A stretch of DNA of 53,417 nt from a virus. Where the stretch lies: positions 1 through 53,417 of the IMG/VR virus record IMGVR_UViG_3300032278_000010, one strand, 5' to 3'. Shown piece by piece: positions 3 through 50,839 of the stretch. The notes below the pieces were generated by a model that was not told where the DNA came from, did not search any database, and was given only the letters and a program-made list of their open reading frames with translations. The stretch's first letter is position 1. Each line of letters starts with the position of its first letter. The translations under genes and the position numbers were made by a program.

Positions 3-3000
3 TCAAAGCCTATTCCAGATGGTAATTTTAGTATAGAACCATTAGAACCGCATCAAATTAGATTTGCTCTACCTACGCATAAAGCTAAACAAGTAATTAG
101 AGAGGCTGCTAGTAGAGGAAGAGAATATACAGATGAGAATTTTGATACACTTGCAGGTTTATTAGGAAAAGTACCAAAAAGTTTACCTGTAATGAAAAAC
201 GGAAAGAAAACTGGCAAATGGTATCAAGTATTTGAAACAAATGAAAACGTAGCTGCTGAACAAGAAGAGTCTTTAGAAGATGTTGAAATAATCGTTATTG
301 ATGAAGCTTCAATGGTAAATGAAAGCCAAACAAAAGAATTAATTTCAATGGCAAAAAGACTAAATATACGTTTATTGTTTATGGGAGACAATGTTCAATT
401 ACCTCCTATAGAAAAGGGCGGTCAAGGGACTGTAGATGTAGCTCGAGTATTCGACACTGTAATGGAAATTAACCAAAAAGAACGAGTCCCTATAAATATT
501 AAAGCCCATTACGCCATACTTAATCAACGTATGAGACAGGATGAAGGTAATCCTATTTTAGGTATTACTGATATTCTTGCTAACGTTGCAGAGTGGATTC
601 ATGAACGACATGAAAATTATAAAAAACTCTGGAATAATTCAGATCTAAATTTCATATTACCAAATATCAATAATGAAAATGTTAAATATGAAAAAACTGA
701 AGTTACAAGAATTAAAGGAATGAAGAGTTTACAGGCATTCCCGACAGATTCAACAATTGAAAGTTTTGCTAACGAATATAAAGAAGCTAAAGATAACAAT
801 AATGAAAAGAATGTTAAATTCATTCAGTACAATAATGCAGATCATCCAAGAACTAAACAGCTTCGTGCAAAAATTCGTGAAAAACTTTTTGATGATTTCT
901 TTGCTGGGGATGTAGAAACAAAGCCTTTTCTTGTAGGTGAACGAGTAGTATTAGATGATGCTATAGCTATACTTGACGGAAGTACTATTAAATTTACTAA
1001 AGATTTACATAATGGAGATGAAGTAACTGTAGTAGCTGAGCTGAAAAAAGAAACTAATACTAGTTACAAGGACGGAATATTAGACAATTCTCCTACTTAC
1101 GAAGGGATTCCTGTAAATATTTTAAAAGTTAAAACAGATAAAGGTAAACCATACAGCATAGTATTAGAACATCCTACCTCTAAAAACGCTATAAAACAGG
1201 CGATGAAAAAGGGCAAGATCTATGAAGAAGGAAGTGGAGAAGAAAATAGAATAGCTCAAGAAATGTTTACAGAGGGTATAGGTGCAGCATATTTAATTAA
1301 TGCACATAAAGCACAAGGTAGTACTTACGATACTGTATATGTTGATTACGAAAATATTATGCGTAGTGCACAAGATAGTACAGACACAAAAACAGGAGAA
1401 ATTAAAAGATGGGGTCCTGATTTTCTAACTAGAGTAAAGGCATTATATGTTGCTACTTCCCGGCCAAGAAACAGACTTGTACTAGTTGGCTCAGGTGATC
1501 TGTCATTTGGAACAGGCGAACAACTACAAGAAAATATAAAAATAAAAGAAGATATCGAAGATCTTCAAGATCCTCCATTGCAAGATAACATTAATGACGC
1601 AGCAAAAGATGATCTTAAATCAATGGATGATTTACCAAAAGTTCCAACTAAAAATCCAGAGGATCTTGGGGGCATTGAAGAAGGTAACTTCAAGAGATTA
1701 TTTAACAAATTTAAAGGATTTTCGGCGCAATACTATGCTAATGCTCAGGAAATGCTTGGGCATACTGAAACCTTGGAGACAGTTTTAGATATTTTAGGTG
1801 AGGGAATTACTGAGATAGGCGGGATTAAATTAACCTTACAGGAAGTTAACGGAATTACTCAAGGTGAATATGACATAGCTAATAAAGCTATGATAGTAAA
1901 TCTGAGTAACGGTGCACCATTTAACGTTAATCAATCCCCGCAGGAAGTTTATGTTCATGAATTACTGCATGCTACTACAGCTCTCGCTATAAGAGAAAAT
2001 CCTTTAATTGCTGATCGTGTACATAGAGTTTATCTCCAAACTAAAAGAGCTTTGAGTGCAGATCCTAAGTTTAAAGGCGAGCCGTGGAGAGTATTCTTAA
2101 CAGGAATTGATACTCCTTCTAAGAATGATGAAGCTATGGCTAAGAAGCAATACGATTATGTATTTGCGGGTAAAGAGAAGAATAGACTACATGAATTTTT
2201 AGCTTATGCTGCAACTAACCGACAAATAATTGAGTATCTCAAGACTCAGCCTAAACCTGTAAGAGAAGGAATTCTAGATAAGATACTAGGTATTATTACC
2301 TCTATAATGAATTTCTTGAAATCTTCCTTCGGTAGCAGAACTTACGTAGCTAAGAGTGAAAATGCATTTGCAGAAATACTTGCTGCTACTGAGCATCTAG
2401 TAGCTACTCAAGCTAAACATGAAAGTATGTTAGACAGGTTAAGTGCGTACACTTACAATAATGCAGATGCTGCAGATAAATTTATTAAACGAACTGGGGA
2501 GAATGTACTTCTTAAGATTAAAGGCAAGGAGGGCGAAAACGTAGGTGTTCTTAGACAAGCTGCTACTATTGTCGGTGGCGGAATTTACGGCATTATGAAC
2601 ACTAATGACGCAACTATAGCTCTTAGACAGAAAATAGATCAAGGATTAAGTAAAACAATGAGAGGTATCGCCAGTGAAATTGGAGACGGTGCTCTCACCA
2701 AAGAAATGATTGAACAACTACTCTATGTAAAAGTTAATATATCCAAAGCTCGTCAGCAAGCAGAGACATTTACAATGAGTTGGTTTAATGGAAATAAGGA
2801 AGAAGAAATAGAGGGTATCTGGAAATCAGTTAAAGAAGGTGACAAGCATGGAATAGACGCCAAAACGAAAGTAGCCTTAACTAGGGTACTATTTCAAACT
2901 GATCTATCTGTTCTTTTAAATGAAGGTAATGAGTGGGCCATGACCCCTGCTGAGATTGTGGATCTTATAGGCCATACTGGTAAAGCCAGAAGAGATACAC

Positions 3001-5156
3001 TAAAAGCTAGAATAGCTGCGGAGCTTAAACTTTCTCATAGCTCAGATCCTCTTAGTTACGCAAAGGAATTAGGATATTGGATTGCTACAGGAAATACTAG
3101 ACTAGATGATTCTCATACTAATGTACGTACTATCGCAGCAGAGTATTTCACCAATCCTACTACTGCCGAAATAAATCTATTAGATATGTATTCCACGTTA
3201 TCTGCTTTAGATTATACAGATACTACCCATAATAAAGCCGTTTTAAAGCTAGCTAAAGCCGAATTTGAGGCTGATTTTGATCGTAATGGCATAAGTGATC
3301 TTCTCAAGAGTCATCATACATATAAACAGAATGTACACGCGGAGAACTTTGAAGAGAATGAAATGCAGCTAGTTAAAGGCTATATCGTAGAACGTGTAGA
3401 TAATTTTACTCATATTAGAATGGGTAGAGCTGACCAGAAAAAGGAAATGAAACAATTAGGTTATTCTGAAAGCTACCCAGTAAAGAAGATAGATGGTAGA
3501 CAAACCATTGATACAATGTATGTTACGCGTACTACACCAGAAGTTACGGATGTATCAGGTGTAATGTCTACAACTAACCAGAGAAACATGGGTACCACGT
3601 TAACTGAGATATTAGTTAGAGATCCTGCATTCTGGCATAAAAAAGGTCCTAATGAAGGCAAACCAGACTTCTATCTAATACAAGCTAGAGTCCAGAAGTT
3701 TATTAAAGAAAAGAGTAGAGACGCTAAAGCTAATAAAAACAAAGTATGGAATGACGAATTAACCATGCGTCCTCTTAGAGACCAAGCCGGGAATATTACT
3801 GATTATCGGGTAATGATGAATCATGCAGATGTAGAGCAGATTATTCGTCCAGATTTAGAAATTGACCATGTTTTTGCTCACATGAGGTCTTCAGCTGTGG
3901 ATCGTAAAGAAACCATTGAGAGTGATAAGAAGACTGTAGAGCTTCTAGTATATGAACAAATGGATATGATGAGAGCTAATCCAGACCTACATTGGATTGA
4001 TATTATGGATCCTGACTCTCCATACATAGATCGTTATAGAAAGCTTCCTAAAGCCGTCAGAGACCATATGAACGAGTATGCAGTAGGTGGGCAGTTCTTT
4101 ATTAGGGAAGATATTATTGATAAGGTATTTGGCTATAAAGCCTTTGATCTATCTGAATTAAAGATGCTTCAAGAGGAGGATACCAGTCCTAAACGTATTG
4201 CCAAAAGAGTTGCAGGAATAACTCATCATGCAATTAAACAAACTGTTGGGTACGGTAAAAACAGAGTAGTTATTGCTATGCCTAAAGTAGTCATAGGCAA
4301 TATGATGTCTAATATCTACCAGCTTATGATGAGGAAGATCCCATTAGATTATATCTTCCATAAAATCTATGAGGGTATACATGAATATAACAAATACCGT
4401 AAAGATACGGAAAGACGTACAACGCTTAAACACGAAATTGAATCACAAAACTTAGACACTGTTACAAGTCCAGAAGCTATTGAGGTGAGTCAATTAGATG
4501 ATCGTATTCAAGGTAATCTAATTCATAGAATGAGTAAGGCTGGATTAAATTCTCTTATTGTTGAGGATATTAATGATGCTCAGACGGATGGATGGTTGAA
4601 TAAATTACAGAAGACTATTCCATATTCTTTCCCGAAAGCGCAGAAGTTTATAGATAAGATGCCTTCTGAATTAGGAGATGTGGCAAGATTTGTATTTATG
4701 ACTAAAGGCAGTAAGCCTTATCAATATGCTCGTCATGTAGTGCAGCTAACGGATTTCTTAGCTCGGTACGTAATGATTGAGCATGGTACTAAAGTAAAAG
4801 GACGACCTTTTAATGATGTAATGCACGAATCTTTAGATGGATTTGTAGTATTTGATGAAGCTCTTGTCCCAGCATTAGAAGCATTAGAAGCTGTAGGAGC
4901 CACGTCATTCCTTTCTTACTATCTTCGTAATGCCAGAGCATCTAGGAAGTTAGCTGCATCTAGTCCTACAGGAGTAGCACTAGCAGCTGCAGTTCAGCAT
5001 ACTACTGGTATATCTGTATTAGGAAATGTAAATAGTTCCTGGTTAGCAGGCAGATTTACTCCAAATCTGCTTCAAACAGATGACCTATTTGACGAAGCTA
5101 ACAATGTTACCTTGTTTGATATAGTAAAAAATGAAGGCAGAGATTTATTTAATTGA
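3..5156 (+). CDS. Giant polyvalent protein: SF1 helicase + zinc metallopeptidase (5' partial)
   Basis: The frame is open from base 3, so the start lies outside the window; at least 1,717 residues are present. Numbering from the first in-window Met (192), the N-terminal part is an SF1B (RecD/Dda-type) helicase lacking its Walker A, which must lie upstream. A THKA motif precedes that Met, DEAS (Walker B) is at 37-40, GDNVQLPP at 65-72, AHKAQG at 371-376 and YVATSR near 419-424. A gluzincin-like metallopeptidase follows: HELLH at 589-593, with a possible third ligand E668 in HEF. About 950 further residues resemble no family I can name; one hydrophobic stretch lies in the last third. Helicase plus peptidase in one chain is typical of phage polyvalent proteins thought to enter the host with the DNA (inference). 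It ends tail-to-tail with the - strand block, overlapping it by 12 bp. Confidence 0.8.
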   Translation, partial: SKPIPDGNFSIEPLEPHQIRFALPTHKAKQVIREAASRGREYTDENFDTLAGLLGKVPKSLPVMKNGKKTGKWYQVFETNENVAAEQEESLEDVEIIVIDEASMVNESQTKELISMAKRLNIRLLFMGDNVQLPPIEKGGQGTVDVARVFDTVMEINQKERVPINIKAHYAILNQRMRQDEGNPILGITDILANVAEWIHERHENYKKLWNNSDLNFILPNINNENVKYEKTEVTRIKGMKSLQAFPTDSTIESFANEYKEAKDNNNEKNVKFIQYNNADHPRTKQLRAKIREKLFDDFFAGDVETKPFLVGERVVLDDAIAILDGSTIKFTKDLHNGDEVTVVAELKKETNTSYKDGILDNSPTYEGIPVNILKVKTDKGKPYSIVLEHPTSKNAIKQAMKKGKIYEEGSGEENRIAQEMFTEGIGAAYLINAHKAQGSTYDTVYVDYENIMRSAQDSTDTKTGEIKRWGPDFLTRVKALYVATSRPRNRLVLVGSGDLSFGTGEQLQENIKIKEDIEDLQDPPLQDNINDAAKDDLKSMDDLPKVPTKNPEDLGGIEEGNFKRLFNKFKGFSAQYYANAQEMLGHTETLETVLDILGEGITEIGGIKLTLQEVNGITQGEYDIANKAMIVNLSNGAPFNVNQSPQEVYVHELLHATTALAIRENPLIADRVHRVYLQTKRALSADPKFKGEPWRVFLTGIDTPSKNDEAMAKKQYDYVFAGKEKNRLHEFLAYAATNRQIIEYLKTQPKPVREGILDKILGIITSIMNFLKSSFGSRTYVAKSENAFAEILAATEHLVATQAKHESMLDRLSAYTYNNADAADKFIKRTGENVLLKIKGKEGENVGVLRQAATIVGGGIYGIMNTNDATIALRQKIDQGLSKTMRGIASEIGDGALTKEMIEQLLYVKVNISKARQQAETFTMSWFNGNKEEEIEGIWKSVKEGDKHGIDAKTKVALTRVLFQTDLSVLLNEGNEWAMTPAEIVDLIGHTGKARRDTLKARIAAELKLSHSSDPLSYAKELGYWIATGNTRLDDSHTNVRTIAAEYFTNPTTAEINLLDMYSTLSALDYTDTTHNKAVLKLAKAEFEADFDRNGISDLLKSHHTYKQNVHAENFEENEMQLVKGYIVERVDNFTHIRMGRADQKKEMKQLGYSESYPVKKIDGRQTIDTMYVTRTTPEVTDVSGVMSTTNQRNMGTTLTEILVRDPAFWHKKGPNEGKPDFYLIQARVQKFIKEKSRDAKANKNKVWNDELTMRPLRDQAGNITDYRVMMNHADVEQIIRPDLEIDHVFAHMRSSAVDRKETIESDKKTVELLVYEQMDMMRANPDLHWIDIMDPDSPYIDRYRKLPKAVRDHMNEYAVGGQFFIREDIIDKVFGYKAFDLSELKMLQEEDTSPKRIAKRVAGITHHAIKQTVGYGKNRVVIAMPKVVIGNMMSNIYQLMMRKIPLDYIFHKIYEGIHEYNKYRKDTERRTTLKHEIESQNLDTVTSPEAIEVSQLDDRIQGNLIHRMSKAGLNSLIVEDINDAQTDGWLNKLQKTIPYSFPKAQKFIDKMPSELGDVARFVFMTKGSKPYQYARHVVQLTDFLARYVMIEHGTKVKGRPFNDVMHESLDGFVVFDEALVPALEALEAVGATSFLSYYLRNARASRKLAASSPTGVALAAAVQHTTGISVLGNVNSSWLAGRFTPNLLQTDDLFDEANNVTLFDIVKNEGRDLFN

Positions 5157-5961: not shown

Positions 5962-6431
5962 TGTTCCTCCATATGTTTTAATCCATAATGGGCAATCATT
6001 AAAGCGTCAGATCTTCCATCTAATAAGCCTCCTCGTTTACCGTGTAATTCAGCCGTTGGGTATAAGCCTTGAGCTATTTTAGCCACTTGTTTCTTTATAG
6101 CTTTACCTTTAGCAGTAACACCTATGTATTTTTGCCATACTTTAGGAGTAACTGTTTTAGGTGGAATTCCTTTAAGTAATTCAGTAATAGCTAATATAGT
6201 GCCTAGATTTCTACCAAATCCAAAATTAGATTTAGCTGACATACCATACATAGAATGTATGTCTTCTACCCAGATTTCACCACTTCTAAATCTTAATTGG
6301 CTGTGCAACCAATTATAAATATTATTAATGGTAGTTTTCTTTAAATCTAACAGAGCAACGCTGTCTGGATTCTCTGAATCCAGAACAGCGATTGCTCCAT
6401 TAGCCCCCGGATCAATGCCTGCGATAAACAT
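5958..6431 (-). CDS. RuvC-like Holliday junction resolvase
   Basis: 157 residues with an RNase H-fold resolvase layout: GIDPG at residues 5-9 (first catalytic Asp), a VED acidic pair near residue 56, and a C-terminal LDGRSDALMIAHYG segment carrying the last Asp(s). Length and motif order match phage RuvC-like resolvases. The enzyme would cleave four-way and branched DNA junctions before packaging. It overlaps the SSB-like gene by one base and the next gene by 4 bp, fitting a replication/recombination operon. Confidence 0.85.
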   Translation of the reverse strand: MFIAGIDPGANGAIAVLDSENPDSVALLDLKKTTINNIYNWLHSQLRFRSGEIWVEDIHSMYGMSAKSNFGFGRNLGTILAITELLKGIPPKTVTPKVWQKYIGVTAKGKAIKKQVAKIAQGLYPTAELHGKRGGLLDGRSDALMIAHYGLKHMEEQ

Positions 6432-7183
6432 TAAATAGGAGGTTCTTTATCAAACAAAGAGCCTTGAGCAGGAGGAGAAGTATCACCCATTATGCCTGCA
6501 GCAGAGTCTTGTGTTTTAGCACCTTTAGTGCTTTTATCAATAACTAGGCCTGTATTCTTAGTAGCCCATCTATCCATTGCAGCAGCATCTTTTTTCTTTG
6601 TAATCTCCTCAGCAGTTTTACCAGTATCTATATTACCGAAGAATTGACATTGATTAACAGGTTTAGTGTCACCAGAGGCAACCCAATCTCCCTTGGAGTT
6701 CTGAGTTCGTTTATCCTCAATTACTTGACGAACGGCAACTTTAACTTTCTGATTAATCAAATTAGTAATTACTGGGTATTCAGAAGGCATTTCTTTTCCT
6801 TCTTTAAAATCCCAGACCTTAATTACTTTTTTCTCTACTTTGGTCATATTAGTATCGAAATCTTCTCCGGTTACAGATAAACATAAAGATTTAGCAGTTT
6901 GATACCCGGGTAAAGGTTGCTTCTTACCATCTTTACTTACATAGTAAGTTTTGTTACCTTTTTCGTCACCAGATTTAACACACCACTTGTCTCTGATACG
7001 CCCAAAATTTCCACTAGCTTTTTCAAGTTCTACATTTAAAAAATAAGCACCACCAGCGGTTTGAGTTAAATAGGCTAGTTTAATATTGGTATCATATACT
7101 CCGGATTCCCATAAAAAATTTCCTCCGCCAGCTCCTTCAATAGAAGGTTCTACTACATCATCTGGAAGTTTCCATTCACTCAT
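6431..7183 (-). CDS. Probable single-stranded DNA-binding protein
   Basis: 250 residues. The first ~190 residues read as a beta-rich OB-fold-like domain with many aromatics (NFLWESGVYD, GGAYFLNVELE, WKLPDDVV). The last ~60 are low-complexity and end in a short acidic/hydrophobic tip (SLFDKEPPI), as in SSBs that recruit partners through the C-terminus. Its place between resolvase and Sak4-like ATPase supports the call. No diagnostic catalytic motif exists for SSBs, so this rests on architecture and context. A clear AAGGA ribosome site precedes the ATG. Confidence 0.6.
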   Translation of the reverse strand: MSEWKLPDDVVEPSIEGAGGGNFLWESGVYDTNIKLAYLTQTAGGAYFLNVELEKASGNFGRIRDKWCVKSGDEKGNKTYYVSKDGKKQPLPGYQTAKSLCLSVTGEDFDTNMTKVEKKVIKVWDFKEGKEMPSEYPVITNLINQKVKVAVRQVIEDKRTQNSKGDWVASGDTKPVNQCQFFGNIDTGKTAEEITKKKDAAAMDRWATKNTGLVIDKSTKGAKTQDSAAGIMGDTSPPAQGSLFDKEPPI

Positions 7184-11764: not shown

Positions 11765-11770
11765 ATAGTG

Positions 11771-11855
11771 TGCCCTTGGGTGGCCTCGAACCACCGACTT
11801 ACCGTTTCTTCTCCTCAGAAGAATACAGTTGCTTTACCAGCTAAGCTACAAGGGC
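11771..11855 (-). tRNA. tRNA with expanded anticodon loop (best reading: Arg, TCT)
   Basis: 85 nt. The acceptor stem GCCCTTG/CAAGGGC is a perfect 7 bp with discriminator A. The D arm is GCTT AGCTGGTA AAGC and the T arm is GGTGG TTCGAGG CCACC (5 bp, canonical TTCGA). The anticodon stem ACTGT/ACGGT closes a 19-nt loop instead of 7 nt. Removing 12 nt leaves ATTCTAA (anticodon TCT). The extra bases can form their own TTCTTCT/AGAAGAA hairpin. CCA is not encoded. The length could suggest a class II tRNA, but no 17-nt anticodon arm plus variable arm fits. It may be intron-bearing, a decayed gene, or a tRNA-like decoy. Confidence 0.75.
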
Positions 11856-13710: not shown

Positions 13711-15011
13711 GAGTTTATATACACGTTTTCGCTGGCTCTAGTTAAAGCAACATAGAATAGCCGTGCTTTAGTAATTTTATCTCTACATTTATCTATATTT
13801 GTTTTGTCAATAAATACAGCTGGGAATGTTCCACCTTGAGCTTTATGAGTCGTACCTGCAAAAGGTGGGCGTAAATCTGCTAAAGCATTTTTAATATCAT
13901 AATAGTGTACCCAATGTGATTTATCTTTTTCTTTGATAGCTTGTTTCTTATATTCAGCTAAAACTTTATTAGCGGCTGTAGGCGTGATAGGTGAGAATAC
14001 TTTTTTAACATCAGTTTTAAGATACTCACAAAAGTCTCCTCGTACTGTTACTAAATAGCCAGGAATACCCATATATTCTGCATCTTCATATTGCATAACG
14101 CGGATTGTTTCATTATTAGTTAATATTATTTTTTCGGATTCCATCACTACGCTATTAGCAATTAGTATTTCCCCGGGATAAAAAGGTTGCACTACATCTT
14201 CTAAAAAATATGAAGCTTTACGAATCATAGCATTATAATTAATTGCGGATTCGTTAGTATATGTACATAGAGGCACATCCACATAAGTTCCTACAGTATA
14301 GTTCATATATTTACTAACAAATTTCGATACAAAATCTGTATGTGGTAATACATGAATACCGTTTCCATTATTATTAACTAAGCTTTCCAGTGTAGGTTCG
14401 ACACTAATATTTCCTTTTATATATTCACGAAATTCGGTAGCTTTAGCTAGAATTGGATTATCTTTAAGTTGTCTGTGAATTGTAGTAAGGGTAAAGGTAG
14501 GTAATGAACCATCGAAGATACAACATTTATCTTTTGGAGGAGGAAGTTGATAGTTATCTCCTACAAATAGTAATTTTAAATTCTTTTTCTTAACTATATC
14601 TACGATAGCTTTTAAAAATGAATTACCAATCATAGAAGCTTCGTCAATAATAACTAAAGATCCTGGTTTAATTTTACAACTGCCAGAAGATGTAATTAAT
14701 TCTTTACCTGAAGCACTAACAGTAGGACGTAGTTTAAATAATTTATGCGCAGTGGTAGTTTGGTCCTTTCCAATTAATACTATAGTATCGGCTAGTACAC
14801 GAGCTGCTCTATGAGTGCTTGCACACAAAGCTACTGGGATCATATCGTTAATATCTTTAGCTCGTTCTATAATTTCTCCTATTACGGTAGTCTTACCAGT
14901 ACCCGCCGATCCGGTAAGAACAGCTATTTTATGCGTATAAGATATTAGGTGAAGTTGTAACGTGTCACATATACCACTTATCGCATCAAGCTGATCTTGT
15001 GAAAAGTTCAT
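13707..15011 (-). CDS. SF1B DNA helicase, Dda/RecD2-like
   Basis: 434 residues, the length of T4 Dda. Motif I GSAGTGKTT is near residue 34; Ia is ASTHRAA; II is IIDEAS; III is VGDNYQLPP; V is THKAQGGTF; VI is FYVALTRA at the C-terminus. It would translocate 5'-3' on single strands and assist replication or recombination. The start overlaps the DNA polymerase stop by 26 bp, so the two are probably co-translated. All key motifs are intact. Confidence 0.88.
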   Translation of the reverse strand: MNFSQDQLDAISGICDTLQLHLISYTHKIAVLTGSAGTGKTTVIGEIIERAKDINDMIPVALCASTHRAARVLADTIVLIGKDQTTTAHKLFKLRPTVSASGKELITSSGSCKIKPGSLVIIDEASMIGNSFLKAIVDIVKKKNLKLLFVGDNYQLPPPKDKCCIFDGSLPTFTLTTIHRQLKDNPILAKATEFREYIKGNISVEPTLESLVNNNGNGIHVLPHTDFVSKFVSKYMNYTVGTYVDVPLCTYTNESAINYNAMIRKASYFLEDVVQPFYPGEILIANSVVMESEKIILTNNETIRVMQYEDAEYMGIPGYLVTVRGDFCEYLKTDVKKVFSPITPTAANKVLAEYKKQAIKEKDKSHWVHYYDIKNALADLRPPFAGTTHKAQGGTFPAVFIDKTNIDKCRDKITKARLFYVALTRASENVYINS

Positions 15012-17436
15012 AAATCTCCTTTAGTGTTGCATTATTATTTAATGGAACTAATGTATCCCAAGATTTACCTATTTCTAGCGTAGCTTTCATAGGAACATCT
15101 ACAGATTTAATCACTTTATGATCGTTCCATTCCATTTCTTCGATAAGTATATCGTTTAAAAATTTAATATAATGTGGGTCATTTCTAACTATGAAATAAC
15201 CAGCATCGTGGATCATATTACATGGAAGAATATCCTGGCTATGGCCAGCTTCTTCTATACGCCGGTTAGTTGCATTCATAGCTCTATTAAGTAGCATCCC
15301 CCAGGATTGAGTTATTGCATTATTAGCACTACGAGCTTCTTTATCTGCTTCGTGTGGTGTTCTAGAATTGCCTAGAATACACTGCGATATTATTGGAGTC
15401 CTTAGTTTTAAACCAAATGCGCACTCTACGTATCCATGTTCTTCCATAAATTGTGTATTCTTTTTATTGAATTCTTTAGATACTTTATATAATTCATGAA
15501 ATGCTTTCTCAATTTTAGTAGCTTGATTCATCGGAAATCCGGTTCTCTTATGAAGAGTATAAGCTGTGCCCATATATTGTAGAGCAAAGGTAGGTCCTTT
15601 AGATCTACGTCTTAGTTCTGGGTATTTATTTTGAATAGAATTGATACTATCTACATCTGTTGGATCTATATCAGGCATTTGATCTGCGAAATATGTTTGA
15701 GCTCTTAGTGAATGCCCATCATAGCCGTCGGTGTATACCTTAATTCGATTGGGGTCCTTACTTAGAATAGCTCCTATACGTTCTTCTAGAGCTGAGAAAT
15801 CTGCACCTGCAAACAACCAACCATCTGGGGCTACTATACAACTTTTAATAAGTTTTCCCATAGAGCCATGGGCTGGAAGGTTTGTTAGATTAGGAGAATT
15901 ACTGGATAGTCTTCCTGATTGAGTTCCTCCTAATTTTAGATTGCCATGAAGGACATCAGTTTCTTTCATAAAAGCTTTAATAAATGTCCCATCAATTTTG
16001 TCTACTTCAGATAATTCCTGAATAAATTCTAATAAATCTAGAATATCCTGGTCTGTAGTATGATTTGCTAAATCTTTAAGTGTCTGTCCTCCTGTAGCAG
16101 GTGCTCCGGATTTAGTTTTATCTAATATTGGTAATTTTAAATGACCAAATAATAAAAGAGCTAATTGTTGATGACTACTTGGATTAAACTGAACGTCATA
16201 AAATTCTTTTATAGTTTTAACTAATTTCTTTAATTTAGAATTAGCTGTTGTACACGCTACTCTTTGTAAAGTTTTAGTGAATTTTTTAACATGTTTGTTT
16301 TCTTGAATTTGTTCATGTAGTACTTTATTTTTAGCTTCCAAAATATTATGAACATCCATTACTCGTTCTGAGCTCATTGGTAATCCAATCAGCATCATCT
16401 TGGTTAAAGTATATAAACTAGGTTTAAATATTTCTAGATAAGCTTCAGAAGATAATTGTTCTATATAAGTTTCGTAGGCATAGAAAGTAGCTAATGCGTC
16501 AATTAAATTATATTGTAGTATTTCTTTTTTTGTATGTTTGGTGATATCGGTGAGTTCGATAGCGTAATTGCCTACGTACTCTAATGCTATCTCTTTTAAT
16601 CCTAAGGATATTGGAGTAGTAGCATTTTTAGCTAAATAAGCTAGTATCATGGTGTCGTCAAAAGTTTTGAAATTATGCAATCCCCGCATCATCCCTTCAT
16701 AATCTTTATCATGTTCCATCCATAAACTATGAACTAACATTTTTACGTCAAATAAACCATTATGGAATATGAGTTGGCCTCTGTATTTTTCAAAGAAATC
16801 CTTAAGCCAATAGATACCAGTAATTGAAATATCAATTGCTGCACCATCATGCTTAGTCCATGCAAATGCAATAGATATTAAATTGTCATGTAAATCCAAT
16901 CCTGTAGTTTCAATATCTACTGTGAGTACTTGGTGTTGGTACAGATGATCCAAAATATCTCTGTCAGATCCATGAGCAAAACCATATTCAGCAGAATTTA
17001 TGAGTTGAGTATTACCATTAGAAGTGATTGCTTTAATACCTGCATCAATTAATCGAATATTTTCTGGTTGTTTAAATAAAGATTTATAATTTGGAATATA
17101 TACACAGCTGTATTTTTCATAACCGGGATAAGCGCCATTAAGCACTGCACCGTAATAGTCAGAAACTTTAGCTTTTTTAGTAATAACCTTAAAGTAATTA
17201 CTATCAGCTATAATCATGTTAGTAACTGTTTCAGGAATCTTTATGATAAGCTTATCTAAGTAAGCTTTAGCAGTTTTGGCTACTATCTTTGTATCTGTAT
17301 TATATATAAGCGGTAAAGGCAGGACGTCTCCTTTACTTATACCTGCTGCTTCTAATTTGTCTAAATATTGTGATGAGATTTCTGCATAGTTATCTAATGC
17401 ATTTTCTTTACACAGTAGGACAGTAGTGATCGACAT
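14986..17436 (-). CDS. Family A DNA polymerase with 3'-5' exonuclease (first of two)
   Basis: 816 residues. A DEDD exonuclease starts at D174/E176 (VLTVDIETTGLD). Polymerase motif A is ADFSALEER (D546); motif B is RRRSKGPTFALQYMG (R609-G623), with Lys613 and Phe617 at the position of E. coli Phe762; motif C is IHDAGY (H743, D744), with Ala in place of the usual Glu. Phe at position 762 is associated with virulent phages in published PolA surveys (family knowledge). This should be the main replicative polymerase of the - strand block. It overlaps the VWA gene upstream and the helicase downstream. Confidence 0.92.
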   Translation of the reverse strand: MSITTVLLCKENALDNYAEISSQYLDKLEAAGISKGDVLPLPLIYNTDTKIVAKTAKAYLDKLIIKIPETVTNMIIADSNYFKVITKKAKVSDYYGAVLNGAYPGYEKYSCVYIPNYKSLFKQPENIRLIDAGIKAITSNGNTQLINSAEYGFAHGSDRDILDHLYQHQVLTVDIETTGLDLHDNLISIAFAWTKHDGAAIDISITGIYWLKDFFEKYRGQLIFHNGLFDVKMLVHSLWMEHDKDYEGMMRGLHNFKTFDDTMILAYLAKNATTPISLGLKEIALEYVGNYAIELTDITKHTKKEILQYNLIDALATFYAYETYIEQLSSEAYLEIFKPSLYTLTKMMLIGLPMSSERVMDVHNILEAKNKVLHEQIQENKHVKKFTKTLQRVACTTANSKLKKLVKTIKEFYDVQFNPSSHQQLALLLFGHLKLPILDKTKSGAPATGGQTLKDLANHTTDQDILDLLEFIQELSEVDKIDGTFIKAFMKETDVLHGNLKLGGTQSGRLSSNSPNLTNLPAHGSMGKLIKSCIVAPDGWLFAGADFSALEERIGAILSKDPNRIKVYTDGYDGHSLRAQTYFADQMPDIDPTDVDSINSIQNKYPELRRRSKGPTFALQYMGTAYTLHKRTGFPMNQATKIEKAFHELYKVSKEFNKKNTQFMEEHGYVECAFGLKLRTPIISQCILGNSRTPHEADKEARSANNAITQSWGMLLNRAMNATNRRIEEAGHSQDILPCNMIHDAGYFIVRNDPHYIKFLNDILIEEMEWNDHKVIKSVDVPMKATLEIGKSWDTLVPLNNNATLKEIYELFTRSA

Positions 17437-22225: not shown

Positions 22226-23977
22226 CTACGAAAGCATATAGCTACTATTTAATATCTTAGTATCAAGATTGTAAGACATCTTTGTAAACTGCCATGCAGA
22301 ATTTCCAGTAATCTGACGTAAGATATCTTCCATTAGGTCACTACTAGCTATTTCAGCCATTATTTCCCTATAAGTCATTGTAACATGCTGCAAGTGATTA
22401 GGGTTAAACACAAAGCAATCATGAACATGGCTTAATTGGAAATTACAACGTCTAATCATTTCTCTAGCCACATAGCCATCCACTGAATGGATAATATTAG
22501 GGCAAAGAGACCTATAATTGTCAGATTTAGTTTGATGGAGCCACCTCAAAGGTATATCACCGAATTGTTCATCTGAGTATACACCATTAATCGGTTCTAC
22601 AACAGGTACATATACGTGATGATCATCTGGCATAATCCATTCGTGAGATGTTGCTTGTGGGTCCCAACACTCATTAATGGCGTCCATCACTTGTTCAGCT
22701 CCTGGCAGGAATCCGTCAATAACTGTATAGAATACTTTCAGTTCTTCTGCAGATAATAACTTCTTAGGCTCAGCTCTAGAATTATAGAAGTGAGTCATTG
22801 CAACTTGTTTTACGATCTTTCTAGATACAGGCTTAGATAGCTGTAGGTTCATTTCATTAGCTATCGTGTTATACACATCTACTCGTTGATCAGGATCTAC
22901 CATGTTTACTTGAGTAGCTGTAGCTTCGCATCCTGACAATGCAGCCATGACCTGAAGCCCTGAGGAGGTCGCATCTAGGCTCATTACATATCCCGTAGCC
23001 TTACACTCCTCTGTATCTTTAAGTGCTCTAATAGCTTTACGTCCTAGAATAGGCTCCTTCCAGTTAATGGAATCTGGATGCATTGCTTTAGCCCATTTAT
23101 ATCTATCCTGCCAAGTCAGGTTATCCATGCCTGCATGATTAGCAATTGCTATATACAAGTTTGGTAAACCAATTTCAGTGACAACTTCTTTTTTATGCAA
23201 CGATAACAAGGCTTTACCATATTCATTAGTTTGAAGATTAAGATCATAACCAGAAGAATAACTTCTTCCTCTACAATCATATCTCCATACAAAATGAAAA
23301 GGGATCCCTAAGTAGTCTTTAATAACTCTTAAGAATTTCTGTTTGTTCATTGCACGGTTAGTTTGCTTTTCATGCTTATAAGTTTCGGAATCGATTTCCC
23401 ACTCGGTTTCCTGTAATTTATTAATTACATCATAAGCTAAAGGCAAACTATGTTTCTTAAATTTGTTACCTAATACCAGATGTTTTGTTTCAAACAGCCA
23501 TCCGCCATTAGTATTATTTGTCCAAGGAATAGGCAGGGATTTCATAGGCGGTAAATACTGTAGCCTATCAATCTTCTGCTTTATTTTCTTAGTTAATGTG
23601 AGATTAGGATAAACATACCAATCTTCTTCCATTTCTTGGAATTGATACAATCCAGATTCAACACATTCTTTAAGAAGTATTATTCCCCACTCGAAAGCTT
23701 CTGCAGTATCATGAATACCCGCAATATGACCTAATTGAGCTGCTATAGCTTGTATCGGTCTTGCAACCTTATCTTTAAGCATAAGACTAAAGAATTTAAT
23801 AAAGATTTCTTTATTAGGAACTGGCCCTCTATTGAGTTCTGTAATATTATCCAATATAGCTAACTCCATAGAAAATGGAATGTTACCTTGGATAGCCTCC
23901 AATACTATTTCATCAGTAATTCTTGTAGACCACGATGTTTCCATCTGGTATTGCTCCATTTCCTTTTCGTTTTCCAT
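22226..23977 (-). CDS. Short T7-type single-subunit RNA polymerase
   Basis: 583 residues against 883 in T7 RNAP, so most of the N-terminal promoter-binding domain is missing or minimal. The catalytic core is complete: YDCRGRSY (233-240), motif A LDATSSGLQ (D335), motif B R386/K390/M394/Y398 (Asn399 replaces the T7 Gly640) and motif C VHDCF (H519, D520). It would transcribe phage genes from its own promoters. A promoter-like motif at 24049-24063 and an attenuator-like hairpin precede it, and a strong terminator follows. It is the last gene of the early-type block. Confidence 0.9.
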   Translation of the reverse strand: MENEKEMEQYQMETSWSTRITDEIVLEAIQGNIPFSMELAILDNITELNRGPVPNKEIFIKFFSLMLKDKVARPIQAIAAQLGHIAGIHDTAEAFEWGIILLKECVESGLYQFQEMEEDWYVYPNLTLTKKIKQKIDRLQYLPPMKSLPIPWTNNTNGGWLFETKHLVLGNKFKKHSLPLAYDVINKLQETEWEIDSETYKHEKQTNRAMNKQKFLRVIKDYLGIPFHFVWRYDCRGRSYSSGYDLNLQTNEYGKALLSLHKKEVVTEIGLPNLYIAIANHAGMDNLTWQDRYKWAKAMHPDSINWKEPILGRKAIRALKDTEECKATGYVMSLDATSSGLQVMAALSGCEATATQVNMVDPDQRVDVYNTIANEMNLQLSKPVSRKIVKQVAMTHFYNSRAEPKKLLSAEELKVFYTVIDGFLPGAEQVMDAINECWDPQATSHEWIMPDDHHVYVPVVEPINGVYSDEQFGDIPLRWLHQTKSDNYRSLCPNIIHSVDGYVAREMIRRCNFQLSHVHDCFVFNPNHLQHVTMTYREIMAEIASSDLMEDILRQITGNSAWQFTKMSYNLDTKILNSSYMLS

Positions 23978-24004: not shown

Positions 24005-24036
24005 AAAAACCCCTTAAACCTGAATAGTCTAAGGGG
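24005..24036 (-). terminator. Terminator-like hairpin in the RNA polymerase leader
   Basis: On the - strand CCCCTTA ... TAAGGGG (7 bp, 13-nt loop) is followed directly by TTTTT. It sits 13 nt downstream of the proposed start site of the 24049-24063 promoter and 27 bp upstream of the RNA polymerase ATG. It could act as an attenuator or stop read-through from upstream small genes. Confidence 0.65.
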
Positions 24037-24048
24037 CGTTTGAAAGAT

Positions 24049-24063
24049 CTAATCGGCGTAGCC
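24049..24063 (-). promoter_or_regulatory. Phage promoter motif, copy a (RNA polymerase gene)
   Basis: GGCTACGCCGATTAG on the - strand, then A. One of seven intergenic copies of GGCTACGCCTAKTAGR. This copy alone extends the GGC-TAC-GCC stem to 5 bp (TCGGC/GCCGA). It lies 72 bp from the RNA polymerase ATG. Confidence 0.65.
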
Positions 24064-27472: not shown

Positions 27473-27703
27473 CTAAAAGTTTATGTATTCTAGTTTAATT
27501 ATTACAGGATTTTGATAAATGGATAAAGTAATGGGATTGTCTAATGTTGCTGCCGCTTCTTCAGCTGTATTATATTCCCTGGTCGTAAGTACCAGTACTG
27601 GAATTTTTTGGTCTTGTCCGTTTTCATCTGGTCCAAGACTTATAGGTTTGTACATTGGATTGTCATGTTGATAAGCTATTTGGTATTTCCATGTTATAGG
27701 CAT
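27473..27703 (-). CDS. Small protein, unknown
   Basis: 76 residues, beta-rich with an Ala-rich helix (TAEEAAATLDN). GAAGGAGAAACC precedes the ATG. It is the first gene after the large structured RNA and may share its transcript. Confidence 0.5.
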   Translation of the reverse strand: MPITWKYQIAYQHDNPMYKPISLGPDENGQDQKIPVLVLTTREYNTAEEAAATLDNPITLSIYQNPVIIKLEYINF

Positions 27704-27714
27704 GGTTTCTCCTT

Positions 27715-28363
27715 CTAGGTTAAAGTTTATAGGTAATAGAGTAGAGTAAGGTCAGTGGTCGTACGCATCCACCTCACCCTAAAACGGGTGTGTTCCCATT
27801 TACTCTTAAAAGGCACCGCTCGCTAACTACCACTGGCTTGATGCAGTGTTCCGTAAATCTGGGGAGACGCTCACACCTACCTCTATTCAAATTAAGTAGA
27901 GGCAGCACCCGTATCGGAACTAGCCTAGTTGTCCTCTGCAATAGAGCACCTCGACCCTGAACTTGCGGTATACTGCCTCTTATATTAAGTGGTACGAGCT
28001 GCCCATTACATGAAGTCATCGTTAGATTGTTAGGCGTGTATAGCCTCTCTTATCTCGATGTCAACATGGGTCGTTAGTCTCTCTGCCACTTTATAGAATT
28101 TGTTAAGGCAATCAAGCCTACCGCCTTTGATAATGGAGAACGGTCTCCCTTTCACCTCTTGGGCTAGCTATCGGATTCTAGCTAGCTTGCATCACGCAAT
28201 CGGTAAGCCCCATAGTTACAGCACACGTGACCACTGTAACGCTTTAACTGAGGCTAAATTCAATCTTCCATAATAACCAATCTCCTAATTAAAGGGTGGC
28301 TAGAGACTATAGCCGTATGCTCAGGCTTATAGTCTCTAGTCTTGGGGTAAGTTTCTGAATCTC
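27715..28363 (-). ncRNA. Large structured non-coding RNA (~640 nt)
   Basis: No real ORF; the longest frame gives an Arg-rich shadow. It begins just after promoter motif d. In order on the - strand: a perfect 12-bp hairpin (28300-28311 with 28328-28339), GTTACAG/CTGTAAC, GCTAGCTA/TAGCTAGC (8 bp), GGAGA/TCTCC, AGGC/GCCT twice, a long AGAGGCAG/CTGCCTCT pair enclosing CTCT/AGAG and AACTA/TAGTT stems, CACCC/GGGTG, and an outer CCAGTGGT/ACCACTG pair. AGAGTAA and TTACTCT cross this last pair, giving a pseudoknot. This resembles large ornate phage RNAs (ROOL/GOLLD size class); the exact class is untested. Confidence 0.7.
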
Positions 28364-28377
28364 TGCTAGGCGTAGCC
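28363..28377 (-). promoter_or_regulatory. Phage promoter motif, copy d (structured RNA)
   Basis: GGCTACGCCTAGCAG then A on the - strand, directly before the structured RNA. It lies within a CTGCTA ... TAGCAG inverted repeat. Confidence 0.6.
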
Positions 28378-28959: not shown

Positions 28960-29168
28960 TATAGTTAATTAAGTAAGCAGTTTCACGCATGCTCAGGCGT
29001 TGGGATAACCACTGAACTACTAAGATACCTAACTATGGTCATCCTGTTCGTTAGGTAAATGCAAGGAGTGACCTTGCAGTAATGACCGTGAGTACTACCT
29101 CACAGCCCTAGCAACCACGCTAGTAATAGCTTAGCCCTTTCTAAAGGGGCTAAAGATCAGAATGGTTA
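28960..29168 (-). ncRNA. Structured 5' leader
   Basis: About 200 nt between promoter copy e and the 82-aa gene. Perfect hairpins: TACCTAAC/GTTAGGTA (8 bp), TGCAAGG/CCTTGCA (7 bp), CTAGC/GCTAG and a TAGCCC/GGGGCTA-type stem. It could be a regulatory leader or a separate small RNA. Part of it resembles a tRNA D arm, but there is no T arm. Confidence 0.5.
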
Positions 29169-29176
29169 GATCCGAC

Positions 29177-29191
29177 CTAATAGGCGTAGCC
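29177..29191 (-). promoter_or_regulatory. Phage promoter motif, copy e
   Basis: GGCTACGCCTATTAG then G on the - strand, upstream of the structured leader and 82-aa gene. Confidence 0.68.
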
Positions 29192-48776: not shown

Positions 48777-48790
48777 AGGAAAACTTGAAA

Positions 48791-50839
48791 ATGATAAAAA
48801 CATCACTAGATTTCGAAACTTATTCAGAATGCGACATTAGAAAGGCGGGGGCGTGGGCATACGCTACGCACGAATCTACGAGGGTTATATGCATGGCGTA
48901 TGCCTACAGCGAGGACGCCCCGCAACTTTGGCTACCGGATAAACCCCTCCCGGATTTTTTATCCGCCCCAAATCAATATGAAATCCACGCGTGGAATTCA
49001 TTTTTTGAATGGGTTATATGGACCCACGTACTTAAACTTCCTACACCCCCCATTACACAATGGTACGACACGGCGTCTCTTGCTTCCGCAATGGCGTTGC
49101 CAAGGTCTCTTGGAGAATGTGGGTACGTGTTAGGAATGCCGGAAGATAAAATGAAAAACAAACGCGGGTATTACCTGATAAGCAGATTGTCAAAACCACA
49201 TAAAGAAAACGACGACCCGGAACTGTTAAAAGAGATGTACGCGTACTGTAAGCAAGACGTAATAACGGAAAGAGCTATCTCTAAAAAATTGTGTGGTTTA
49301 AACGAGACCGAAAGAAAAATATGGGTGATGGATCAGGATATAAACATTCGGGGTATTAAAGTTGATACACCCATGTTAAAAGACGCTATGTCGGTGTACG
49401 AAACGATCCAAAACCAGTTGGCGGAAAAATTAAAAAAATTGACCGGGTTGGATAACCCGAACAGCCAGAAACAGTTTTTAGGTTGGCTTCTCGATCAAGG
49501 AGTAGTGGTAAACAACATTCAAAAAGCAACCCTAAAAAATATTTTGGAAACCCCGGACAAACACGGTGTCCACGAAGCAGTGAAACTAAAATTATCCTTG
49601 GCAAAAACAGCCCCTAAAAAATACATTTCAATAAAAGAACGTTTGGGGCGCGGAACCCGACTGCATGGAAACATCATGTACCACGGGGCGTCCACAGGCC
49701 GATGGGCTTCAACGGGTGTCAACCTTCAGAACATAGCTCGACCTACTCTGGACCCGGAAATGTGTATTGATATGATCCGTCAAAAAGATCTGGAACTTTT
49801 TAGGATGACGGACACCGACCCCATGGAAGCGTTGAGTAGCGCCGTCCGGGGGACACTCATTCCAAGTGAAGGAAAAAAATTTATAGTCGGGGATTACGCG
49901 TCGATAGAATCCCGCGTCCTCGCATGGTTAGCGGGTCAACAAGACAAGCTTGATATTTTTTCCGGACACGGAAAAATTTATGAACATTCAGCTTCAAAAA
50001 TTTTTAGAAAACCAATAGAAGACATAACAAAAGAGGAACGGTTTCTAGGGAAAATCGCCGAACTGGCTTGCGGGTACGGTGGGGGAGTCAGAGCATTCAG
50101 CGTGATGGCAAAAAATTACGGGGTAGATATCCCCCGCAAACAAGCTGAAAAACTGAAACAGGAATGGAGAAAATCGAATAAAGCTATTGTTGATTTCTGG
50201 TGGGCTTTAGAAGAGGCCGCAAAAGACGCCATATGGAATAACAAGATAACTACAATCACCCGTCAAGGCAAAAAAATACCCGGAGTTATTCCGGCTGAAT
50301 ACGGAGTAACATTGTGGATGCAACACAATTTCCTCTGGTGTCGTTTACCCTCGGGAAGAAACCTCGCCTATTACAGACCGCATTGCGCGATGAAAAAAAT
50401 CCTATGTTATAAAATACCGCCGACAGGGGGCGACCCGGAATTGACGTTTTTATACAACCCCATAGACTATAAATCGAAACAGCACTTTCTCGACGAGGCA
50501 GAAGAAGCAGAAGGTGAGCCGTTTGAATTCGAAGCTATGAACATAACTTTTTTCGGGACGGATTCCATAACCAGAAAATGGTGCAAACGAGATACATTCG
50601 GTGGTAAACTGGCGGAAAATGTAACCCAAGCAGTCGCTCGGGATATCATGGCGGAAGCCATGCTTGTGCTAGAAAAAGAAAGGTACGACATCGTGTTAAC
50701 TGTTCACGACGAAATAATATCGGAGGTCAAAAATGGAGATGTCAAAAGATTTAAAACAATTATGGAGAATGCACCTGAATGGGCAAAAACATTACCAATC
50801 ACCGTCGAAGCTTACGAAGCAACAAGATACCGAAAATAA
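48791..50839 (+). CDS. Family A DNA polymerase with exonuclease (second of two)
   Basis: 682 residues from ATG 48791 (AGGA upstream). The N-terminal DEDD exonuclease begins LDFETYSE (D7, E9). Motif A is GDYASIESRV (D368). Motif B is RFLGKIAELACGYGG, with Leu425 at the position of E. coli Phe762. Motif C is VHDE. Leu at position 762 is associated with temperate or slow phages, unlike the Phe in the polymerase at 15-17.4 kb. It is the kind of polymerase normally found with DUF2800 and DUF2815. Confidence 0.92.
   Translation: MIKTSLDFETYSECDIRKAGAWAYATHESTRVICMAYAYSEDAPQLWLPDKPLPDFLSAPNQYEIHAWNSFFEWVIWTHVLKLPTPPITQWYDTASLASAMALPRSLGECGYVLGMPEDKMKNKRGYYLISRLSKPHKENDDPELLKEMYAYCKQDVITERAISKKLCGLNETERKIWVMDQDINIRGIKVDTPMLKDAMSVYETIQNQLAEKLKKLTGLDNPNSQKQFLGWLLDQGVVVNNIQKATLKNILETPDKHGVHEAVKLKLSLAKTAPKKYISIKERLGRGTRLHGNIMYHGASTGRWASTGVNLQNIARPTLDPEMCIDMIRQKDLELFRMTDTDPMEALSSAVRGTLIPSEGKKFIVGDYASIESRVLAWLAGQQDKLDIFSGHGKIYEHSASKIFRKPIEDITKEERFLGKIAELACGYGGGVRAFSVMAKNYGVDIPRKQAEKLKQEWRKSNKAIVDFWWALEEAAKDAIWNNKITTITRQGKKIPGVIPAEYGVTLWMQHNFLWCRLPSGRNLAYYRPHCAMKKILCYKIPPTGGDPELTFLYNPIDYKSKQHFLDEAEEAEGEPFEFEAMNITFFGTDSITRKWCKRDTFGGKLAENVTQAVARDIMAEAMLVLEKERYDIVLTVHDEIISEVKNGDVKRFKTIMENAPEWAKTLPITVEAYEATRYRK

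Follow-up and report, generated by a model that had tools for sequence, protein, structure and literature searches.

A composite of structured RNA modules behind an early promoter hairpin in an N4-like phage

A virus record of 53,417 bases, the whole of which is referred to here as the window, contains at 27715-28377 a stretch that an initial annotation described as one ornate non-coding RNA of about 640 nt with its own promoter motif. The locus raises the question of whether this is a single large RNA of the kind known from other phages, a folded portion of an early message, or a set of smaller units. The description held in part: the coordinates, the promoter, the helices and the scarcity of coding potential were confirmed, but a pseudoknot and the unity of the 640 nt were not.

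The window comes from an N4-like phage that encodes its own virion RNA polymerase, and cultured N4-like phages have large terminases 58-63% identical to the one found here. Between about 30 kb and 5 kb, early and middle genes are read from the minus strand, and the plus strand carries the late genes (Table 1). The first 440 residues of the virion RNA polymerase frame, 192-5156 (+), also match a Dda-like helicase profile. Two separate frames match phrog_17, a phage DNA polymerase profile, one in the early region at 14986-17436 (-) and one in the late region at 48785-50839 (+).

Table 1. Features of the RNA region and its surroundings in the window. L-numbers denote related viral records.
Feature	Coordinates	Strand	Remarks
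Virion RNA polymerase, C-terminal, frame	192-5156	+	profile E 4.8e-109
DNA polymerase	14986-17436	-	
Single-chain RNAP2	22226-23977	-	
Next downstream gene, 76 aa	27473-27703	-	ORF; own ribosome site AGAAGGAG
D3 module, 153 nt, closed by AATAGAG/CTCTATT	27735-27887	-	L014, L017, L044
Variable linker	27888-27987	-	segment different or absent in L014/L017
D1b module, closing stem AAGTGG/CCACTT	27988-28091	-	core conserved in L014, L017
D1 core, multi-branch: P1 GTTAA/TTAAC, P2, P3, P4, P5, P6	28102-28248	-	homologues, covariation
P4 helix of D1 (8 bp; loop GAATCCGA nearly invariant)	28163-28186	-	
AGGAG ribosome site and putative minigene ATG GAA GAT TGA	28260-28286	-	stop 11 nt before D1
Hairpin H1 (12 bp, bulged A, 3 bp), loop sharing CCTGAGCAT with D2	28300-28339	-	sequence, fold
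Early promoter hairpin copy GGCTACGCCTAGCAG	28363-28377	-	one of 7 early-region copies
D2: hairpin/pseudoknot GGATGACC/GGTTATCC and ACGC-CTGAGCAT-GCGT-GAAAC-TGCTT	28972-29058	-	part of adjacent early transcript

The minus strand of the early region carries seven hairpins resembling GGCTACGCCTAKTAG, one of which does lie where the initial annotation had placed a promoter motif, with the RNA downstream of it on the same strand. The motif is shared by related phages, in some of which the loop is TCC. One of the copies in L011 reads GCC-TAC-GGC, with a compensated stem, and the version in L021 and L040 contains TTGCTTCGC, which is the core of the N4 promoter P1 (PMC12633501). As at the promoters of the N4 virion RNA polymerase, a hairpin with a 3-base loop stands ahead of early genes in a phage that has a virion RNA polymerase gene; the predicted promoter here differs in its stem of just 3 bp (GGC/GCC) and its loop of TAC or TCC. 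Judging from the spacing at N4 P1 (PMC12633501), the RNA would start near 28362, and its transcription from the hairpin is probably carried out by the injected virion RNA polymerase. Another copy of the promoter hairpin, within 24009-24063 (-), has a strong terminator-like hairpin (GCCCCTTA...TAAGGGGTTTTTC) no more than about 30 nt behind it, ahead of the RNAP2 gene; L010, L003/L012 and L011 show a similar arrangement after their equivalent promoter.

The folding energy of the minus strand is better than that of 20 of 20 dinucleotide shuffles (z -2.6). Since the plus strand also beats its shuffles (z -3.8), folding energy cannot choose between strands, and the minus strand was assigned from the direction of the promoter, the neighbouring genes, the ribosome sites and the G-U changes in homologues. 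Three perfect helices that had been read from the letters, of 12, 8 and 7 bp, are borne out and belong to H1, P4 and P2 (GTTACAG/CTGTAAC), respectively. The apparently non-coding character of the region likewise stands. Its 81-aa minus-strand frame was rejected as a gene, as the longest open stretch of 91 codons is within chance length (median of shuffles 61, 95th percentile 99) and indels of 1-2 nt between close homologues break the frame. When both strands were compared by cmscan with 4227 Rfam families, including ribozymes, introns, riboswitches, RNase P and tmRNA, only the sole tRNA of the window, a tRNA-Gln at about 11770-11855 and 16 kb from the RNA region, scored above the gathering threshold. 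Nothing relevant appeared even at E up to 5, which leaves the suggested kinship with ROOL and GOLLD unsupported. Searches of cultured phages by blastn with five query stretches returned no homologue, the one 42-nt match (E 0.07) being at chance level, and no description of these RNAs was found in the open-access literature. These results support a new RNA family, unmatched in Rfam. The earlier idea of a new class survives in that form, although what is new is a composite of separately occurring modules in an early transcript rather than one large RNA.

The best-defined of these modules is D1. A pattern drawn from the window and L002/L010 found further carriers; with the covariance model R1, the window and eight other records then each gave a single confident D1, a looser scan of viral contigs added L040, and a final scan added no lineage. 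D1 is thereby known from ten viral records, at one copy each, with seven distinct sequences (window, L014/L017, L011, L002, L040, L021 and L023=L025=L026), the homologues being few, related and all from uncultured contigs. A scan of GTDB bacterial genomes with the D1 pattern gave no matches. Pairing in helix P4 is kept through two-sided changes at four of its eight pairs, with 95.8% of cells paired, whereas no slid register exceeds 53% paired; the covariation score was reached by none of 500 shuffles. Two pairs of helix P6 change on both sides, owing to the divergence of the close relatives L021 and L023, and two pairs of P2 do so when L002 is compared with L040, in a hand alignment with a register of +1. 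The alignment of P3 was likewise manual, and for P5 no alignment spanning every lineage could be made. The compensatory changes in P4 and P6 identify D1 as a structured RNA family and bear out the expectation that homologous phages would reveal a structured RNA behind its own promoter copy. At the same place and after the same promoter, L002/L010 have a shorter and very different version, in which the hairpin loop AAUCCGA is kept. Two further ideas were set aside: pairing of the P4 loop (CCG) with GGCGGUA (CGG) as a pseudoknot amounts to only three invariant pairs and is not claimed, and the bases required for T-loop mimicry by the P4 loop vary.

Ahead of D1, six of the seven distinct sequences have a strong ribosome site and a start codon soon followed by a stop, which together resemble a minigene of 3-5 codons. 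The predicted peptides are MED, VED (with a GTG start), MHKH, MHKL (L021 and L023) and MYKT. The codons change between lineages and the stops include TGA, TAG and TAA, yet the stop is exactly 11 nt before GTTAAAGCG in every minigene-bearing sequence except L040, in which it abuts D1. As a pattern in few sequences, the minigene is putatively translated.

D1, D1b and D3 follow one another in L014 and L017 as in the window, but elsewhere they come apart. In L011, D1 occurs on its own, flanked by two genes. Most D1 carriers lack D3; L044 has D3 without D1, almost letter for letter, although the early protein that L044 has in common with the window is just 37% identical. The four D3 sequences are near-identical and include one pair with a two-sided change. 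L014 and L017 keep the D1b core but close it with another stem (GCAGG/CCTGC). In L014 an insert of about 245 nt (~6407-6640) lies between D1b and D3; it has no Rfam match and is absent from the otherwise near-identical L017.

The histories of D1 and of the RNAP2 gene disagree. Between the window and L014 or L011, identity is 94-95% in D1 but only 74% in the RNAP2 gene, whereas in the closest relative, L002/L010, the RNAP2 DNA is 94% identical and D1 is strongly different. The modules have therefore been exchanged between phages. The genes flanking D1 also differ by lineage: none of the other D1 lineages has the 76-aa gene of the window downstream, and the gene downstream of D1 in L011 has a homologue upstream in L014. 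D1 is thus not the regulator of one particular gene. Together, the separate occurrence of D1 and D3, their discordant identities and their differing neighbours indicate that the modules move independently of the genes around them.

The leader adjacent to the region contains a further element, D2, which was found in 11 records by matches to the model R2 and whose helices are 100% paired. Pairing in its pseudoknot GATAGCC/GGCTATC survives an AU-to-GC exchange as well as G-U changes, and its hairpin loop CTGAGCAT is able to pair with TGCTC. It is here, in the neighbouring leader, that a covarying pseudoknot lies; the one expected within 27715-28377 found no support in covariation. D2 directly precedes the minigene and D1 in L011, L021 and L023, and the loop of H1 in the window repeats the D2 loop. 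The stretch 28972-29191 (-), after the promoter at 29191, constitutes a second structured leader composed of a hairpin-rich insert and D2 with two pseudoknots. Another module, resembling CACTGCTTCTAAGGCGTTTAGTCCGGGCAGGCATCCTCCTGAACCAC, lies before D2 in L004 (5220-5290) and after it in L013 and L030 (5965-6030 in L030).

We favour, tentatively and at somewhat under an even chance, the reading that the region is a non-coding segment, transcribed early by a phage polymerase, of autonomous structured modules (D1, D1b and D3) passed between N4-like phages as cargo, in much the way that their small early genes are. After initiation by the injected virion RNA polymerase at the predicted start, H1 would shield the 5' end of the RNA, and ribosomes would bind at the AGGAG site, translate three codons and stop 11 nt before D1, which would then fold and act in its own right. 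D1 would most likely present its conserved GAAUCCGA loop and the GGCGGUA joint to a host factor, perhaps one linked to translation, during takeover of the cell, and D3 may be a second such module with a different partner. It is a more speculative step, and one we consider rather unlikely, that these are 'RNA accessory genes' of the N4-like early region, swapped independently of their neighbours, and that as infection begins, within its first minutes, the minigene-fronted D1 targets the translation machinery or some other factor of the host. Several findings count against the cargo reading: no terminator was found between the RNA region and the next gene (27473-27703), in most lineages D1 or D3 has a ribosome site immediately downstream, D1 is known from only seven distinct sequences, and L002 has kept D1 with neither the early stop nor the short minigene. 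The first two of these speak for a cis-acting leader, in which the modules would be 5' or intercistronic elements of an early polycistronic mRNA; with the 5' end occupied by H1 or D2 and a ribosome parked on the minigene, the folded modules would protect the message or tune translation of the next gene. In most lineages the ribosome site close behind D1 or D3 is accompanied by an AU-rich stretch, D2 lies right behind an early promoter in L003, L004 and L013, and a minigene near the 5' end would suit message stabilisation. A general stabiliser, however, need not hold loop sequences so fixed while the stems change, the downstream genes are unrelated, and in L040 D1 stands just before the next promoter-like motif, not before a ribosome site. 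We regard such a leader as a serious possibility, somewhat less probable than autonomous cargo RNA.

Other explanations appear far less probable. The size, the phage origin and the lack of coding would suit a single body of 640 nt of the ROOL or GOLLD type, perhaps forming an oligomer, but this is improbable given that D1 and D3 are found without each other, that the region runs on to the next gene without a terminator, and that Rfam offers no match. To self-cleavage by one or more modules, processing the early transcript, we give similarly little credence: the multi-branched fold and the strongly conserved unpaired segments are as a catalytic RNA might have them, but there is no Rfam ribozyme match, no recognised catalytic core and no evident cleavage site. 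Least probable of all is a structure at the level of DNA, such as a replication or packaging site. The stems could extrude as cruciforms and folding energy does not choose a strand, yet in the covarying helices tested the departures on the sense strand include UA to UG in P4 and AU to GU in D2, and no A-C, and the ribosome site, the minigene and the direction of the promoter are consistent with a minus-strand RNA. As single modules that are shared and swapped behind early promoters, these RNAs offer short testable units (150-170 nt) together with natural variants. If they act in trans, RNA domains that gene-based annotation overlooks would count among the accessory cargo of phages.

No function is, to our knowledge, established for ROOL, GOLLD and similar large structured RNAs of phages. 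The region resembles ROOL as a large structured phage RNA without coding, but differs in having no match to its covariance model (at the gathering threshold or at E<=5, both strands), in its separable modules, and in lacking an adjoining tRNA island. ROOL forms a homo-octameric nanocage (PMC12286853). GOLLD is likewise phage-borne and of similar size range, and a marine example is known (PMC12286853). Its covariance model also gave no match, and its 3' region is universally conserved, unlike D3, which most D1 carriers are missing. GOLLD often lies near tRNA islands, a usual rather than a strict feature; here there is a single, distant tRNA. The putative minigene ahead of D1 recalls the bar minigenes of phage lambda, in which a ribosome site is likewise followed by a very short frame; it differs from them in being coupled to a conserved structured RNA.
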